A program made the position numbers and the translations under genes. Shown piece by piece: positions 9,061-15,081 of a DNA stretch of 64,000 nucleotides. How positions within the stretch are numbered: position 1 is the stretch's first letter; each line of letters opens with the position of its first letter. Source of the DNA: Prochlorococcus sp. MIT 1300 (lineage in GTDB: Bacteria > Cyanobacteriota > Cyanobacteriia > PCC-6307 > Cyanobiaceae); contig NZ_CP139302.1 of NCBI RefSeq assembly GCF_034092375.1, forward strand, positions 682,001-746,000, read 5' to 3'. Below the pieces are notes generated by a model. It did no database searches and was not told the DNA's origin. It worked only from the letters and a program-made list of their open reading frames with translations.

Positions 9061-9789
9061 ATGAGTATATGTAATGAACGCATGACCAAGTCAAAGATCA
9101 AATGGAGACCGCTCTCAATAACAAAGTTCCTGGCTTTGTCAGCCATTTGCATGACTGCGATCAATATATTAATTGTAGTTGCCATGTTTTCTTTCAATTT
9201 AAGGAAAGAATGGTTCCTATTGTTTAATATGGACAAAGAAATGAATATACCGACCTTGTTTGCAAGTTTACTTTTAATATTCTGTGCGGTTTTGATAGGA
9301 ATTGTTGCTAAAAAGATTCCATATAAGAGTAAAGATTTGGCAAAAAAGTGGAGAGCCTTTAAATGGATATTTTTATTTCTAGCGTTAGACGAAGCTCTGC
9401 AGATTCATGAGGTATTTATTATAAATGGATTAAAGCAGCTTTTGCCTCCTATACTTAATTCGGTTTGGGTTGTGCCATACGGCATCTTCTTGGTTTGGTT
9501 CCTATTATATTTTAAGCAATTAATATTCAGCCTTCCTTTAAAGATACGAAGGCTAACCTTATTTTCAGGGGCAGTTTATGTATTCGGTGCCTTAATACTA
9601 GAAATAATTGGTAATTATCTAGTATTGAAAAGTGTCATAAGATTGCATGGAATATCGTACGGATTGATAACAACTTTAGAAGAATTCGCCGAGCTAAGTG
9701 GCTTAATAATATTTATTTATGCTCTACTTTTATATGCTCTAGATTATCAAAAACAAAAAATAAAGATCAATCTGAGAATCAAATCCTAA
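9061..9789 (+). CDS. multipass membrane protein of unknown function
   Basis: 242 residues from ATG at 9061; ATG at 9082 (MTKSKIKWRPLS) is an equally good start. About six hydrophobic spans are visible: around residues 25-50, 60-80, 95-110, 135-155, 170-190 and 205-225. Polar residues buried in the third and last spans form two motifs, LDEALQIHE and LEEFAE, which suggests a metal or catalytic site in the membrane. I do not recognise a named family. It precedes another membrane gene on the same strand. Confidence 0.7.
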   Translation: MSICNERMTKSKIKWRPLSITKFLALSAICMTAINILIVVAMFSFNLRKEWFLLFNMDKEMNIPTLFASLLLIFCAVLIGIVAKKIPYKSKDLAKKWRAFKWIFLFLALDEALQIHEVFIINGLKQLLPPILNSVWVVPYGIFLVWFLLYFKQLIFSLPLKIRRLTLFSGAVYVFGALILEIIGNYLVLKSVIRLHGISYGLITTLEEFAELSGLIIFIYALLLYALDYQKQKIKINLRIKS

Positions 9790-9934
9790 TAAGCATATGA
9801 TTGAGGTTGATATTGCTCACTAGTTAATAAATAAAGTTCTTGGCCAAGAAGTCGACAGGAAAGCACAGTTATGGTTAAAGGGGTAATTTGAAAGCCTGCA
9901 AGAGTGCTATATTTAAAGAAATATTTTCTGAACT

Positions 9935-10678
9935 GTGAATATCAAAAGCAAGCTAAAAGAGAAATCATTCTCATTGATCATTTTGTTGATTTTAGTACTA
10001 GCAATGTTTTTGATTTATAGAACTATCCCAATAGAGGTTGTTCAGGCTTGGCTCTATACTTTGCAGAGTCAGGTAAGCTTATTTGTTCTCTGGGGGCCAA
10101 TTTTAATTTTTGGCCTAAGGTTCATGAGCATAGTAATACCTATACTTCCAGGGACCTACTGTTCTGTACTTTCAGGGTACTTTTTTGGAATACCTCAGGG
10201 ATTAGCTATTATATTTGTTGCAGATTTAATTGCTTGTTCTACTAGCTTTACACTTTCAAGAAGGCTTGGCCGAAACTTTATAAAAACATTGGTAGGTAAA
10301 AGGTTAATGAATCGGGTAGAAAAGTTCAGCAAAAATCACTTAGAACAAAATTTCTTCTTATTGACAGGGCTTTTGATGTCAAACTTCTTTGACTTTGTAT
10401 GTTATGGGGTTGGTCTCAGCAAGATTAAATTTAGACAGTTTCTACCAGCACTTGTTTTTAGCATATTGATTTCAGATACTCCTTTTGTATTCGCTGGTTA
10501 TAGCATTAAAAAGATTGGAAAAACTAACGTTCAAGAGATACTAAGTGGTAATGCTACTTCTCTGCAAGGCATGCCGCTAATATTATTTATAGCTACAGCT
10601 ATTCTAATTTTCTGCCTAGCCATAATAAATATAAAGACCACAAAGAATAATTCTATCGACATCAATTCACGAGATTAA
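9935..10678 (+). CDS. TVP38/TMEM64-family (VTT domain) membrane protein
   Basis: 247 residues from GTG at 9935. The VTT-domain core is visible as FGLRFMSIVIPILPGTYCSVLSG (written here in part), followed by YFFGIPQGL and DLIACSTSFTLSRRLGR. The C-terminal half has further spans. Members of this DedA-related family are inner-membrane proteins; bacterial relatives are linked to lipid handling and stress tolerance. It is 145 bp after the previous membrane gene and could be co-transcribed. Confidence 0.85.
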   Translation: MNIKSKLKEKSFSLIILLILVLAMFLIYRTIPIEVVQAWLYTLQSQVSLFVLWGPILIFGLRFMSIVIPILPGTYCSVLSGYFFGIPQGLAIIFVADLIACSTSFTLSRRLGRNFIKTLVGKRLMNRVEKFSKNHLEQNFFLLTGLLMSNFFDFVCYGVGLSKIKFRQFLPALVFSILISDTPFVFAGYSIKKIGKTNVQEILSGNATSLQGMPLILFIATAILIFCLAIINIKTTKNNSIDINSRD

Positions 10679-10759
10679 ATTATAAATTTCAGCGTCCAAT
10701 TACGATGGCAAACTACCGTCCCCTAATAAAATCATTCTTTACTAAGGGATGACAGAAGA

Positions 10760-10945
10760 CTATACCTCCTTTTCAATAACCTTTCTAGCGTCATGTAGCT
10801 TGTCTAATTCACTGTATATATCCTTTAACTGCTTCTTGATATGATCAACATTATCGATCCTACTAAGAGAGTTCATTGCACTCAAAATACTGTCTTTAGC
10901 AGCTATAAGGCCAAGGCATTGAGTACTTCCAGGTTCATATGGCAT
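10760..10945 (-). CDS. small helical hypothetical protein (61 aa)
   Basis: Starts at ATG 10945 (MPYEPGSTQCLG); a TTG four codons upstream is an alternative. The product is soluble, ending in an amphipathic helix KKQLKDIYSELDKLHDARK. A similar helix, LKEIYAALEALHEL, ends the 67-residue protein at 15082-15285, so the two may be distantly related. No known function. Confidence 0.5.
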   Translation of the reverse strand: MPYEPGSTQCLGLIAAKDSILSAMNSLSRIDNVDHIKKQLKDIYSELDKLHDARKVIEKEV

Positions 10946-11136
10946 GGATTGGTTCAACGATAATTCAACAAATTATAGCAACCACCTCAGAGAATAATAA
11001 AAATGCCAACTAAAGCATTGCATTGAAGTTATTATCTTGCTTTGCTATTGAATTAAAAAATATCATCAAAAATCTAGCAATTTATTTCTACAAGAGATAC
11101 AAGACTTTTATTAAAGTGTGTATTTAGATACAAAAA

Positions 11137-11235
11137 AACACCCCTCGATAGAATCACCAAGGGGTGTTGATCGTCGCTGTTCCAAAATCGATGCGCACCT
11201 CACCGATCTGCCCCCTTAGAACATAACCCCTGGCA
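11137..11235 (-). ncRNA. candidate small non-coding RNA with its own terminator
   Basis: A minus-strand hairpin AACACCCCT / AGGGGTGTT (11138-11169) is followed by seven U residues, a strong terminator, yet no minus-strand gene lies upstream of it within 600 bp. Sequence 11170-11235 is more GC-rich than its surroundings and can fold (GATCG near 11214 pairs with CGATC near 11170). A -10-like TTACATTATT lies at 11241-11250, a sensible distance before a start near 11235. No coding frame fits. I could not assign it to a known Yfr family. Confidence 0.6.
11138..11169 (-). terminator. Rho-independent terminator of the candidate ncRNA
   Basis: Stem AACACCCCT with AGGGGTGTT, loop of 14 nt, followed on the minus strand by TTTTTTT. 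On the plus strand it lacks a U-tract, so it acts leftward. Confidence 0.8.
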
Positions 11236-11445
11236 AAAACAATAATGTAACCGATGCTTTATTTTTGGTTGAGCATATAAGCAAATAACATAAACAAATC
11301 TCACTCAAGCTTGTGCAAGATATTGCTATTAAAAAATAACATCCTGTTGTTAAAAAAATAACATCGACTTATCATTTGTATTCAAGGCATACAAATTTAT
11401 GGGAAGTTGAAGCAGTATTAATATGAAATTCATCCCTACCATCCA

Positions 11446-11652
11446 ATGCTTCTTTCTTCATTAACCACTGGTGCACCAGCTGCAATTACTGACCTTTCAG
11501 CACCTATATTCGGAATACTCGGTGTAATTGGATTTGCTATTTTTGCAATTGGTGGGAAAAGTGACAATGATGGTCAAGGTACCAATTCTTCCCCTTTTAT
11601 AAAAGCAGATGTGACTGGCAAGAAAAAGAGCCAAGCCAATACAGAAGCCTAG
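11446..11652 (+). CDS. small single-span membrane protein (68 aa)
   Basis: ATG at 11446. The N-terminal third is small and hydrophobic with one membrane span (IFGILGVIGFAIFAIGG, about residues 22-38). A hydrophilic tail ends in basic residues KKKSQANTEA. The first residues (MLLSSLTTGAPAAITD) loosely recall PsaK N-termini, but the second span of PsaK is missing, so I do not assign it. It is followed by a strong shared terminator. Confidence 0.55.
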   Translation: MLLSSLTTGAPAAITDLSAPIFGILGVIGFAIFAIGGKSDNDGQGTNSSPFIKADVTGKKKSQANTEA

Positions 11653-11725
11653 TGAAAACTAAGTAGACTTTATAGACATTTGAGGACTAAAGCCTTTCCA
11701 AACTGAGCTTTTTTCTCGGAGACCA

Positions 11726-11775
11726 TTCAACCAACAAAAAAGCCTCACTAACGTGAGGCTTTTTTGTTGGTTGAA
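11726..11775. terminator. bidirectional Rho-independent terminator, 23-bp perfect stem
   Basis: A perfect palindrome with arms of 23 nt (11726-11748 and 11753-11775) around a TAAC loop. The core GCCTCAC/GTGAGGC is flanked by A6 and T6. It lies between the plus-strand 68-codon gene and the minus-strand Pcb gene and can stop both. Confidence 0.93.
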
Positions 11776-11805
11776 TTAAGAGGTTTTTACAAAGGAGTAA
11801 TAGTT

Positions 11806-12861
11806 CTAATCACGCACAGTGATTTTGACATTCTCCATGTTTTCAAAAGCATTAGAAATTCGTCTAAAATCAAATCCCATACCTCTTAAAGCATGCCAGA
11901 GATGACCCTGTAGGAAAAAGAACCCTAGGAAAAAATGAGCATTGGATAACCAAGCTCTAGAAGTGTGGACATCTGCTGAAAGATTGGAGGCGGTATCAGT
12001 AAAATAAGGGAAAAACTCAAAATTAAGTTTTAAAACCTCACCATAGAATTCTGTTGGGTAAACAGTGGTGTTAGTTGAACACCAAAATGCTGCAACAAAA
12101 GCCATATATCCAACCCCTGCAAGGGAGTAAGAAAGAACGGATTCAGCTGAAAGCAATCCTTTCCCTTTGAATTGAGTGTATTCACCAAATTGCTTAGTAG
12201 CAATATGGAATGCTCCTCCACTTATAAGAAGAAAAGCCAAGATTCCATGACCACCCATTACATCCTCCAGGCTGGTTATAGATAAGAAATCAGCTTGATG
12301 ATTCCAAACCATTGAAGCGCTTAGGTTAGGTTCAACAGTCCGAACAACGCCTTGTGCACTGTCCCAAATGCCATGGTATTTGGCCCATTCAACAAACTGA
12401 ATAGCGCCGAGTCCAAGGAAAATTAGATGATGGCCAAGGATGGAGGTCAATCGATCAGGATCGTCCCAAGTAAAGTCAAATTTCTTAGGGCGACCACTTG
12501 CATCCCCAAGATCACCTTCGAACTTGAGTGAATGGAGGAGTCCACCAGCACCAAGTACTCCGGAGAAAATTAGATGCAAAACCCCTATGACTGTGCATGC
12601 ATAAAGATCAGTAATTACACCTCCTTCAATTCCTCCAATACCCAGAGAGGCTAAATGAGGTAAACAAATTAAACCCTGAGTTCCCATTGGCAAAGAAGGG
12701 TCATATCTAGCCAACTCAAAGAGGGTGAATGATCCAGCCCAGAACATCATCAATCCAGCATGGGCTGCATGCGCGGCGATGAACTTGCCTGAGCGGTTAG
12801 TCACCCCAGAATTTCCCGCATACCAATCATAGGTAACGTTTGGGTTTCCGTAGGTCTGCAC
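11806..12861 (-). CDS. Pcb divinyl-chlorophyll a/b-binding antenna protein
   Basis: 351 residues from a GTG at 12861 (MQTYGNPNVTYDWYAGNSG). It is a six-span protein of the CP43/IsiA/Pcb family: membrane-embedded His residues of the family recur (AAHAAHAGLMMF, LGHHLIF, GGHGILAF, LWHAL). Features typical of Pcb are SVTNRSGKFIA-like sequence at the N-terminus and the DDPDRLTSILGHHL loop. It collects light for photosystem I or II in Prochlorococcus. Low-light strains carry several pcb genes, and I cannot tell which copy this is. Flavodoxin lies 640 bp away on the opposite strand, which hints at an iron-stress type. It shares a 23-bp-stem terminator with the gene on its other side. Confidence 0.95.
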   Translation of the reverse strand: MQTYGNPNVTYDWYAGNSGVTNRSGKFIAAHAAHAGLMMFWAGSFTLFELARYDPSLPMGTQGLICLPHLASLGIGGIEGGVITDLYACTVIGVLHLIFSGVLGAGGLLHSLKFEGDLGDASGRPKKFDFTWDDPDRLTSILGHHLIFLGLGAIQFVEWAKYHGIWDSAQGVVRTVEPNLSASMVWNHQADFLSITSLEDVMGGHGILAFLLISGGAFHIATKQFGEYTQFKGKGLLSAESVLSYSLAGVGYMAFVAAFWCSTNTTVYPTEFYGEVLKLNFEFFPYFTDTASNLSADVHTSRAWLSNAHFFLGFFFLQGHLWHALRGMGFDFRRISNAFENMENVKITVRD

Positions 12862-13050
12862 GAGGAAGACAGATATATAGGACTATATGAACTTATTAAT
12901 AAACTGACTCAAGCTTGATGTTCACTTTACATGGTTTATTAGGGTTGTGAATTATGCAAACCTAGTATATATCATTGATCACACCATAATGTTTTTAGCC
13001 CTACTATCGTCTTTAGGTCTAAAAAATATGCGAAATTTGTACTAATAGAA

Positions 13051-13502: not shown

Positions 13503-14027
13503 ATGCCTGTAGGAATTTATTTCGCCACAACCACTGGTAAAACCGAAGACGTAGCAGAACGACTACATGAACTTCTCGAAACATCCAATCCACCCAAAGA
13601 CCTCGCCGATCTTTCAAGCCTAGATGAGTTTGAAGGTCTTGATGGAATTATTTGTGGCATACCGACCTGGAATACTGGAGCAGATTGTGAGCGATCAGGT
13701 ACAGCCTGGGACGAAATGCTTGAAACAATCGGAAGTATGAAGTTGGCAGGAAAGAAGGTCGCTATTTTTGGATTGGGAGACTCCTCTACTTATACAGAAA
13801 ATTTTTGTGATGCAATGGAGGAGTTACATAGTTACTTCGTAAAAGCTGGAGCTAAAATGGTTGGGTATGTTCGCAAAGATAGCTATACATTTGATGACTC
13901 CAAAAGTCTTCTGGGAGAAAGCTTTTGTGGCTTACCACTAGATGAAGATAGTGAATCAGATTTAACTGACTCTCGACTTCAAAGCTGGGCACAAGAGCTA
14001 AAGCATGAAATGCCTGAATTAAATTAG
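13503..14027 (+). CDS. isiB: flavodoxin
   Basis: 174 residues. The FMN phosphate loop is YFATTTGKTEDVA (residues 6-18), the first isoalloxazine loop is PTWNTGADCERSG, and the second loop region is GLGDSSTYTENFCDAMEEL. The length matches long-chain cyanobacterial flavodoxins. It replaces ferredoxin as the soluble electron carrier from photosystem I when iron is scarce. In many cyanobacteria isiB follows the antenna gene isiA; here a Pcb antenna gene lies nearby but on the opposite strand. Confidence 0.95.
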   Translation: MPVGIYFATTTGKTEDVAERLHELLETSNPPKDLADLSSLDEFEGLDGIICGIPTWNTGADCERSGTAWDEMLETIGSMKLAGKKVAIFGLGDSSTYTENFCDAMEELHSYFVKAGAKMVGYVRKDSYTFDDSKSLLGESFCGLPLDEDSESDLTDSRLQSWAQELKHEMPELN

Positions 14028-14803: not shown

Positions 14804-14905
14804 TTATCTTTGATACTGCTGACCTCGATAAGTCAAGACAGCATGCTGTCTTTGTCCAGCATCTTTTTGCTGTTGATACTTTTGACCGCGATAGGTAAGA
14901 GTCAT
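14804..14905 (-). CDS. 33-residue DUF4278-type protein with two LTYRGQ repeats
   Basis: ATG at 14905 follows a GGAG ribosome binding site by 7 nt. The product starts MTLTYRGQKYQQQKDAGQ and repeats LTYRGQQYQR at the end, so it consists of two copies of a YRGQ(K/Q)YQ unit. The LTYRGxxY motif is characteristic of the small cyanobacterial DUF4278 family, whose function is unknown. A terminator follows at once. Confidence 0.8.
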   Translation of the reverse strand: MTLTYRGQKYQQQKDAGQRQHAVLTYRGQQYQR

Positions 14906-15081
14906 TTGGTTCTCCGAGTTAGCTCAAGTCCCCGTTCCTTGGCTTGAATCGAACTGCGCCCCACTATGTAGCAGGGTGAACGTTTTGTAGCGATTGCTAC
15001 CAAAAATAATTATCTGCTGTAAATGCTCATTTGGCAAGACCCAATGTTCGATCTACTATCAAAATATGAAATCAATGATTA

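Follow-up and report, generated by a model that had tools for sequence, protein, structure and literature searches.

The locus and its neighbours

The locus described here belongs to Prochlorococcus sp. MIT 1300, whose genome (G000) is a single contig of 1,855,146 bases, and which we presume, partly from general knowledge of the group, to be a low-light (NATL-like) strain. The window, meaning the whole stretch of DNA that was analysed, is 64,000 nucleotides long, and all coordinates below refer to it unless another source is named. A candidate small RNA (sRNA) lies on the minus strand, divergent from a short open reading frame (ORF) that starts at 11446 and close to a gene for a chlorophyll-binding protein of the pcb type. 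The features are as follows.

9935-10678, plus: VTT-domain membrane protein
10957-10760, minus: 65-aa ORF, homologues in three related loci
about 11213-11130, minus: candidate sRNA of about 80-84 nt, with a predicted start 7 nt past the -10 box and a predicted end in the T-run; covariance-model match, orthologues in eight other species
11132-11168, minus: Rho-independent terminator found by terminator search, 14-bp stem and T-run
11169-11186, minus: linker with GGAACAGCGAC
11187-11207, minus: hairpin I, stem AUCGGUG/CAUCGAU
11220-11225, minus: predicted -10 box, TATGTT (TANNNT)
11245-11251, minus: conserved element of the -35 region, GTTACAT in the window
11446-11652, plus: 68-aa ORF, divergent from the sRNA; syntenic anchor, outside the RNA itself
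12861-11806, minus: pcb-type chlorophyll-binding protein (Pfam PSII)
13503-14027, plus: flavodoxin

An earlier note on this DNA had placed the candidate between two membrane-protein genes, which is a loose description: on the other side the nearest ORF is the 65-aa frame, and the gene of the VTT-domain protein lies beyond it. The 68-aa ORF contains one hydrophobic stretch and has no Pfam match at E <=0.001. Between this ORF and the convergent pcb gene there is a long inverted repeat (11725-11776), T-rich on both strands and probably a bidirectional terminator, which attracts many Rfam matches below cut-off. Opposite the pcb gene (12297-12468, plus strand) an IsrR-like antisense stretch scores 45.3 bits, where the cut-off is 52; the match is above cut-off in three of the eleven loci scanned (L034, L038, L041), and the signal may merely mirror the conserved isiA/pcb coding sequence. 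Farther away, a Glutamine-II riboswitch (67.7 bits) stands ahead of a short ORF that contains the LTYRGQ motif twice (14923-14985 and 14804-14905, both minus).

Terminator, folding and coding potential

The candidate consists, in order, of a 21-nt hairpin (AUCGGUG-AGGUGCG-CAUCGAU), the linker and a terminator ending in U7. The minus-strand terminator with U7 was confirmed: a stem of 14 pairs occupies 11168-11137, and seven T stand at 11138-11132, two of them inside the stem. The stretch of 99 nt that had been called folded is indeed so, with -36.7 kcal/mol against -28.0 +/- 3.1 in 200 dinucleotide shuffles (z -2.8, one shuffle equal), and the statement that it holds no coding frame agrees with our scan, in which all ATG, GTG or TTG frames crossing it are at most 34 aa. 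By eye, the short frames that begin in the hairpin differ between relatives and shift in frame; L036 is without ATG or GTG, and stops follow codons 5 (L032), 7 (L039), 8 (L041) and 10 (L038). Two properties looked for in an sRNA gene, its own Rho-independent terminator and the lack of a conserved reading frame (from the window scan and from relatives by eye), are thus present, and a third, its own promoter, is predicted from the sequence, with an unusual spacing of the elements.

Terminator-like sites in 9500-13000 are by count at the level of chance (2 found against 2.5 +/- 1.7 in shuffles), so that significance must come only from the comparison of relatives. The same count is what favours reading the locus as an accident, a strong terminator next to an unrelated GC-rich spacer, but we consider this extremely improbable, as it is largely refuted by the independent recovery of the element in synteny, by covariation and by a promoter footprint, each described below.

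Orthologues at the syntenic position

We collected 80 pcb loci from genome contigs of Prochlorococcus and, in a few cases, of uncultured Synechococcaceae. Seven of them (L031, L032, L033, L036, L038, L039, L041) carry a similar linker and/or hairpin together with a terminator, divergent from a homologue of the 11446 ORF; L035 and L037 have the homologue and no RNA. A covariance model, R1, was built from these seven orthologues and the window (8 sequences), and it matches the window at 11220-11129 with 73.2 bits, a score to be read with the window sequence being part of the training set. Searched over 54 sources (the window, L031-L080, L105 and two Yfr2 loci), R1 gave 62-90 bits for the eight training copies and 17.4 for the next match. 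Over 400 genomes of the family, which are a draw from a larger group, it recovered the training copies again and one new copy in the same gene context (L116 in genome G137, 81 bits, E 1.5e-20). Beyond these nine copies above 60 bits the best match in the 400 genomes has 26.8 bits; matches at E <=0.1 occur in 46 of them, with at most 10 candidates scored per genome, and the host genome has one match at this threshold.

The comparison of the syntenic region that the earlier note had proposed as a check therefore finds the candidate at the same place in eight further species, and all nine loci have the divergent 11446 homologue and pcb. A homologue of the 11446 ORF is present in 27 of the 400 genomes, often beside pcb, and the 12 that exceed 80 bits all have pcb adjacent. 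The RNA occurs in 9 of the 12 species with such a close 11446-pcb pair; in L152, L153 and L155, which also have the pair, an unfiltered model search found nothing above 11.1 bits. Plain sequence search is less informative: blastn of the locus against 99 relatives matched 62 of them at E <=1 in short pieces, one of which (35 nt in G019, E 0.0033) turned out to be orthologous (L033/L002/L123), and against the 400 genomes it returned the locus itself and nothing else at E <=0.001. The other orthologues were found by inspecting the syntenic position.

Several weaker matches were viewed and set aside. Ten of the R1 matches (L124-L133) resemble, by eye, terminators or coding sequence, and the 11446 homologue is absent from all of L124-L144; L133, with 21.8 bits, has a pcb homologue in convergent orientation and was not counted. 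A second model, R2, was applied to 17 chosen genomes and matched 10 of them at E <=1; the two best matches score 30.2 bits (E 7e-5) and 29.9 bits (E 5e-5). Six of its matches (L192-L197) have by eye at most a terminator in common with the candidate, and three of these six (L192, L193, L195) have no 11446 homologue; a remote relative may be among the R2 matches. In viral contigs there was no exact match to the terminator, and a query of 421 bases against phage gave 67 records at E <=10, the best listed at E 0.03 and none covering more than 80% of the query. Two viral matches to the hairpin pattern comprise the hairpin only (17.7 bits), lie inside a GC-rich frame read as terminase coding sequence and were attributed to chance.

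Conservation of the secondary structure

Conservation of the stem in relatives, on which the earlier proposal depended, is borne out by covariation. In the alignment of the nine sequences (A3), 91.0% of the cells are paired against 80.4% in shuffles, none of which comes as high in 500. Two-sided changes are seen in 9 of 15 pairs, a number that none of the 500 shuffles equals; as A3 was fitted to the model, these pair counts lean towards structure. Sliding the partners by 1-3 columns lowers the pairing to 30-46%. The covariation is mostly that of the terminator, where 7 of the 8 modelled pairs have a two-sided change somewhere and 93% of cells are paired, as against 2 of 7 pairs in hairpin I, where 88.9% of cells are paired.

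The folding z-score of the 82-nt RNA ranges from -2.75 to -7.44 across the nine sequences. Hairpin I by itself spans from 0.03 (L031) to -5.47 (L116), with -1.7 in the window, and in several species it is not clearly above shuffles. The lowest-energy fold of the 82-nt window RNA differs in its 5' half and lacks hairpin I, which does appear in the fold of the 99-nt stretch; in L032 the hairpin is rebuilt differently. Hairpin I, with its 7-nt loop AGGUGCG, thus appears to be supported mainly by sequence conservation (73% mean pairwise identity). In the alignments, AGCGA of the linker is common to 7 of 9 sequences; the linker is absent in L033 and reads AGCUAUA in L041.

The promoter and the length of the RNA

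A TANNNT hexamer, TATGTT in the window, precedes the hairpin by 16-18 nt in eight of eight sequences, the window included. None of 2000 dinucleotide-shuffled sets reaches eight and one reaches seven, in a test that treats the upstream regions without regard to kinship. L032 was kept outside the test because of its odd hairpin and has TATTAT at -22. Farther upstream, the element that reads GTTACAT in the window contains TNACA in five of nine sequences, and the other four read, by eye, CTACAT, ATACAC, ATACAG and ATACAT. Mean pairwise identity among 8 sequences (L038 was omitted for its longer spacer) is 73% at 11251-11246, 36% in the spacer that follows, 69% in the -10 box and 44% in the spacer farther upstream.

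The window, L031, L038 and L116 have 19-20 nt between this element and the -10 hexamer, and L039 has 15; the usual gap between -35 and -10 boxes is 17. As the two conserved elements stand farther apart than such boxes usually do, the upstream one could be the site of a regulator rather than a -35 box. In the earlier note the -10-like box had been put at 11241-11250. That segment has the minus-strand sequence TTACATTATT but overlaps the conserved element (11251-11245) near -35; taken as a -10 box it fits TANNNT in four of nine sequences, L032 having another TANNNT 4 nt further on, and it is more likely a part of the -35 region. From the conserved -10 box at 11225-11220 the start is predicted at about 11213, and the RNA would be about 80-84 nt long. 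The length of 99 nt given before is accordingly most likely wrong, the prediction being about 80 nt (from about 11213 to 11132).

An independent gene or a leader

Synteny in nine species, covariation and the conservation footprint of the promoter together give good support to the proposal of an independent, terminated small RNA. We consider it likely, with fair confidence, that the locus is an independently transcribed sRNA gene of a Prochlorococcus group, about 80 nt long, with its own predicted promoter of the sigma-70 type and its own terminator, and a putative regulator that would pair in trans. A hairpin followed by a terminator is also the layout of an attenuator, and the RNA could be a 5' leader that controls the 65-aa ORF (10957-10760). 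In the window and in L041 this ORF comes next on the strand of the RNA, and in L032 it stands about 2 kb farther down. A leader of this kind we judge improbable: the nearest downstream ORF of at least 60 aa points the opposite way in L031, L036 and L038 (three of eight loci scanned, L116 being outside the scan), which argues for a stand-alone unit, and the 65-aa gene is elsewhere in the L031 locus, with no copy found at the other related loci compared. Conservation does not extend to the gene downstream, so that a leader or attenuator is unlikely.

Possible targets

Duplexes with the leader regions of pcb (9 sequences), flavodoxin (7), the 11446 ORF (9) and the 10760 ORF (4) showed nothing consistent. 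The lowest ranks were 13, 15 and 16 of 200, each in a single species; a rank of 9 of 200 for pcb in L116 came from a tested region that contained the RNA itself, and in the test of the 10760 leader the starts were misplaced in L031, L032 and L041. A pattern complementary to the linker is not in excess in the nine genomes (15 matches, compared with 20 when the control pattern, its reverse, was used); four of the 15 are the RNA gene itself, and among the 11 other loci no pair matched each other (blastn, 1e-10).

Another idea is that GUGAGG of hairpin I lets the candidate bind the Yfr1/Yfr10 motif (UCCUCAC) as a decoy or partner, in the manner of Yfr2. Pairing with CACUCCUCACACG beats most shuffles in the window, L033 and L039 (27, 17 and 24 of 500 as good), and the same genome contains a gene (L209) that we take to be Yfr1-like from its motif. 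In L031, L032, L036, L038, L041 and L116 the pairing is unremarkable (102-384 of 500 shuffles as good) and the complement is not kept, which makes the idea highly improbable; the window copy, L033 and perhaps L039 could pair in this way, but the ability is not conserved.

With a leader role unlikely, pairing with neighbouring leaders unsupported and pairing with the Yfr1 motif not conserved, elimination favours an RNA that acts in trans by base pairing as the most likely mode. The sRNA would pair with mRNAs or with another RNA through the loop of the hairpin (about RGGURCG) and/or the linker (AGCGAC), and the terminator hairpin would serve 3' end formation and stability. A more specific proposal, which we regard as doubtful, is that of an undescribed, clade-specific Prochlorococcus sRNA family at the pcb/flavodoxin locus, with the purine-rich loop of the hairpin and the AGCGAC linker as two separate pairing sites that would tune antenna or iron-stress genes in trans; to judge by the kind of genes it holds, the locus may be iron-responsive.

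Significance

Comparative sequence data make it very probable that this stretch next to a light-harvesting gene encodes a genuine small regulatory RNA, made as a transcript of its own and common to a group of relatives. A candidate sRNA is not new as a concept. Prochlorococcus has very few regulatory proteins, according to one report (PMC2518516), and each conserved sRNA is thus a candidate for regulating primary production in the ocean. For this one, nine orthologous copies and predictions of the promoter, the ends and the structure make target prediction and tests of expression possible directly.

Comparison with known cyanobacterial RNAs

The earlier note had seen no match to the features of Yfr1, 6S, SRP or tmRNA. 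In the Rfam search that it suggested as a check, no Rfam 15 family reaches the gathering cut-off over the RNA, where the best match on its strand scores 20.8 bits (cut-off 54, E 2.6), and none does so in the seven orthologue loci. Yfr2, which we take to be one family with Rfam RF01701 (Cyano-1), resembles the candidate in being a short RNA of cyanobacteria that has a hairpin in its 5' part as well as a terminator, but the copies in the host genome carry GUGAGGAGU and GAAACAAGGAAA blocks and the candidate has neither. RF01701 has no match in the window, nor near the RNA at E <=10, and the two matches above cut-off in the genome are elsewhere (G000 935947-936013 and 677781-677846). Yfr1 and Yfr10 are likewise small terminated RNAs; they share the motif ACUCCUCACAC, which is absent from the candidate. 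The two places in G000 that carry it, 540393 and 935999, are outside the candidate locus.

In relatives we also observed a multi-copy sRNA in which the ACUCCUCACAC (Yfr1) motif occupies the loop of a short stem, for the most part CGAC/GUCG, and a terminator comes next. This Yfr10-like layout was seen by eye in 15 of 25 motif matches, three of them within about 8 kb on one contig (at about base 1500 of each of L202, L205-L207, L210, L212, L215, L216, L218, L219, L221 and L223-L226), and with the exact motif it was not seen in the host genome.

Other published RNAs can be compared by their descriptions. Yfr103 is a structured non-coding RNA with homologues in NATL1A and NATL2A, and the seven copies in Synechococcus CC9605 have 290-328 nt (PMC5069720); number and length set these copies apart from the candidate, with its predicted 80-84 nt and one match in its own genome. 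Yfr13 has 101 nt in MED4 and homologues in NATL1A and NATL2A, and is shared with high-light strains (PMC2518516); strong matches of the candidate occur in only 9 of the 400 family genomes, a sample that very likely includes high-light strains. Yfr106-Yfr108 of NATL2A are three RNAs tested by northern blot that, as is presumed of the candidate, are small RNAs of a low-light strain with homologues in low-light ecotypes; the same work lists 104 candidate regions of NATL2A, among them 34 RNAs that had been annotated before (PMC7368042). The host genome, for its part, is not of the size of the NATL2A genome, which speaks against identity with these RNAs. A strongly structured, clade-restricted RNA is the kind that the pipeline, as described there, would detect. 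There is nevertheless a substantial chance that the candidate is already on a published list, and its identity with Yfr106, Yfr107 or Yfr108, or with an entry in that candidate table, is a serious possibility that we put somewhat short of even.
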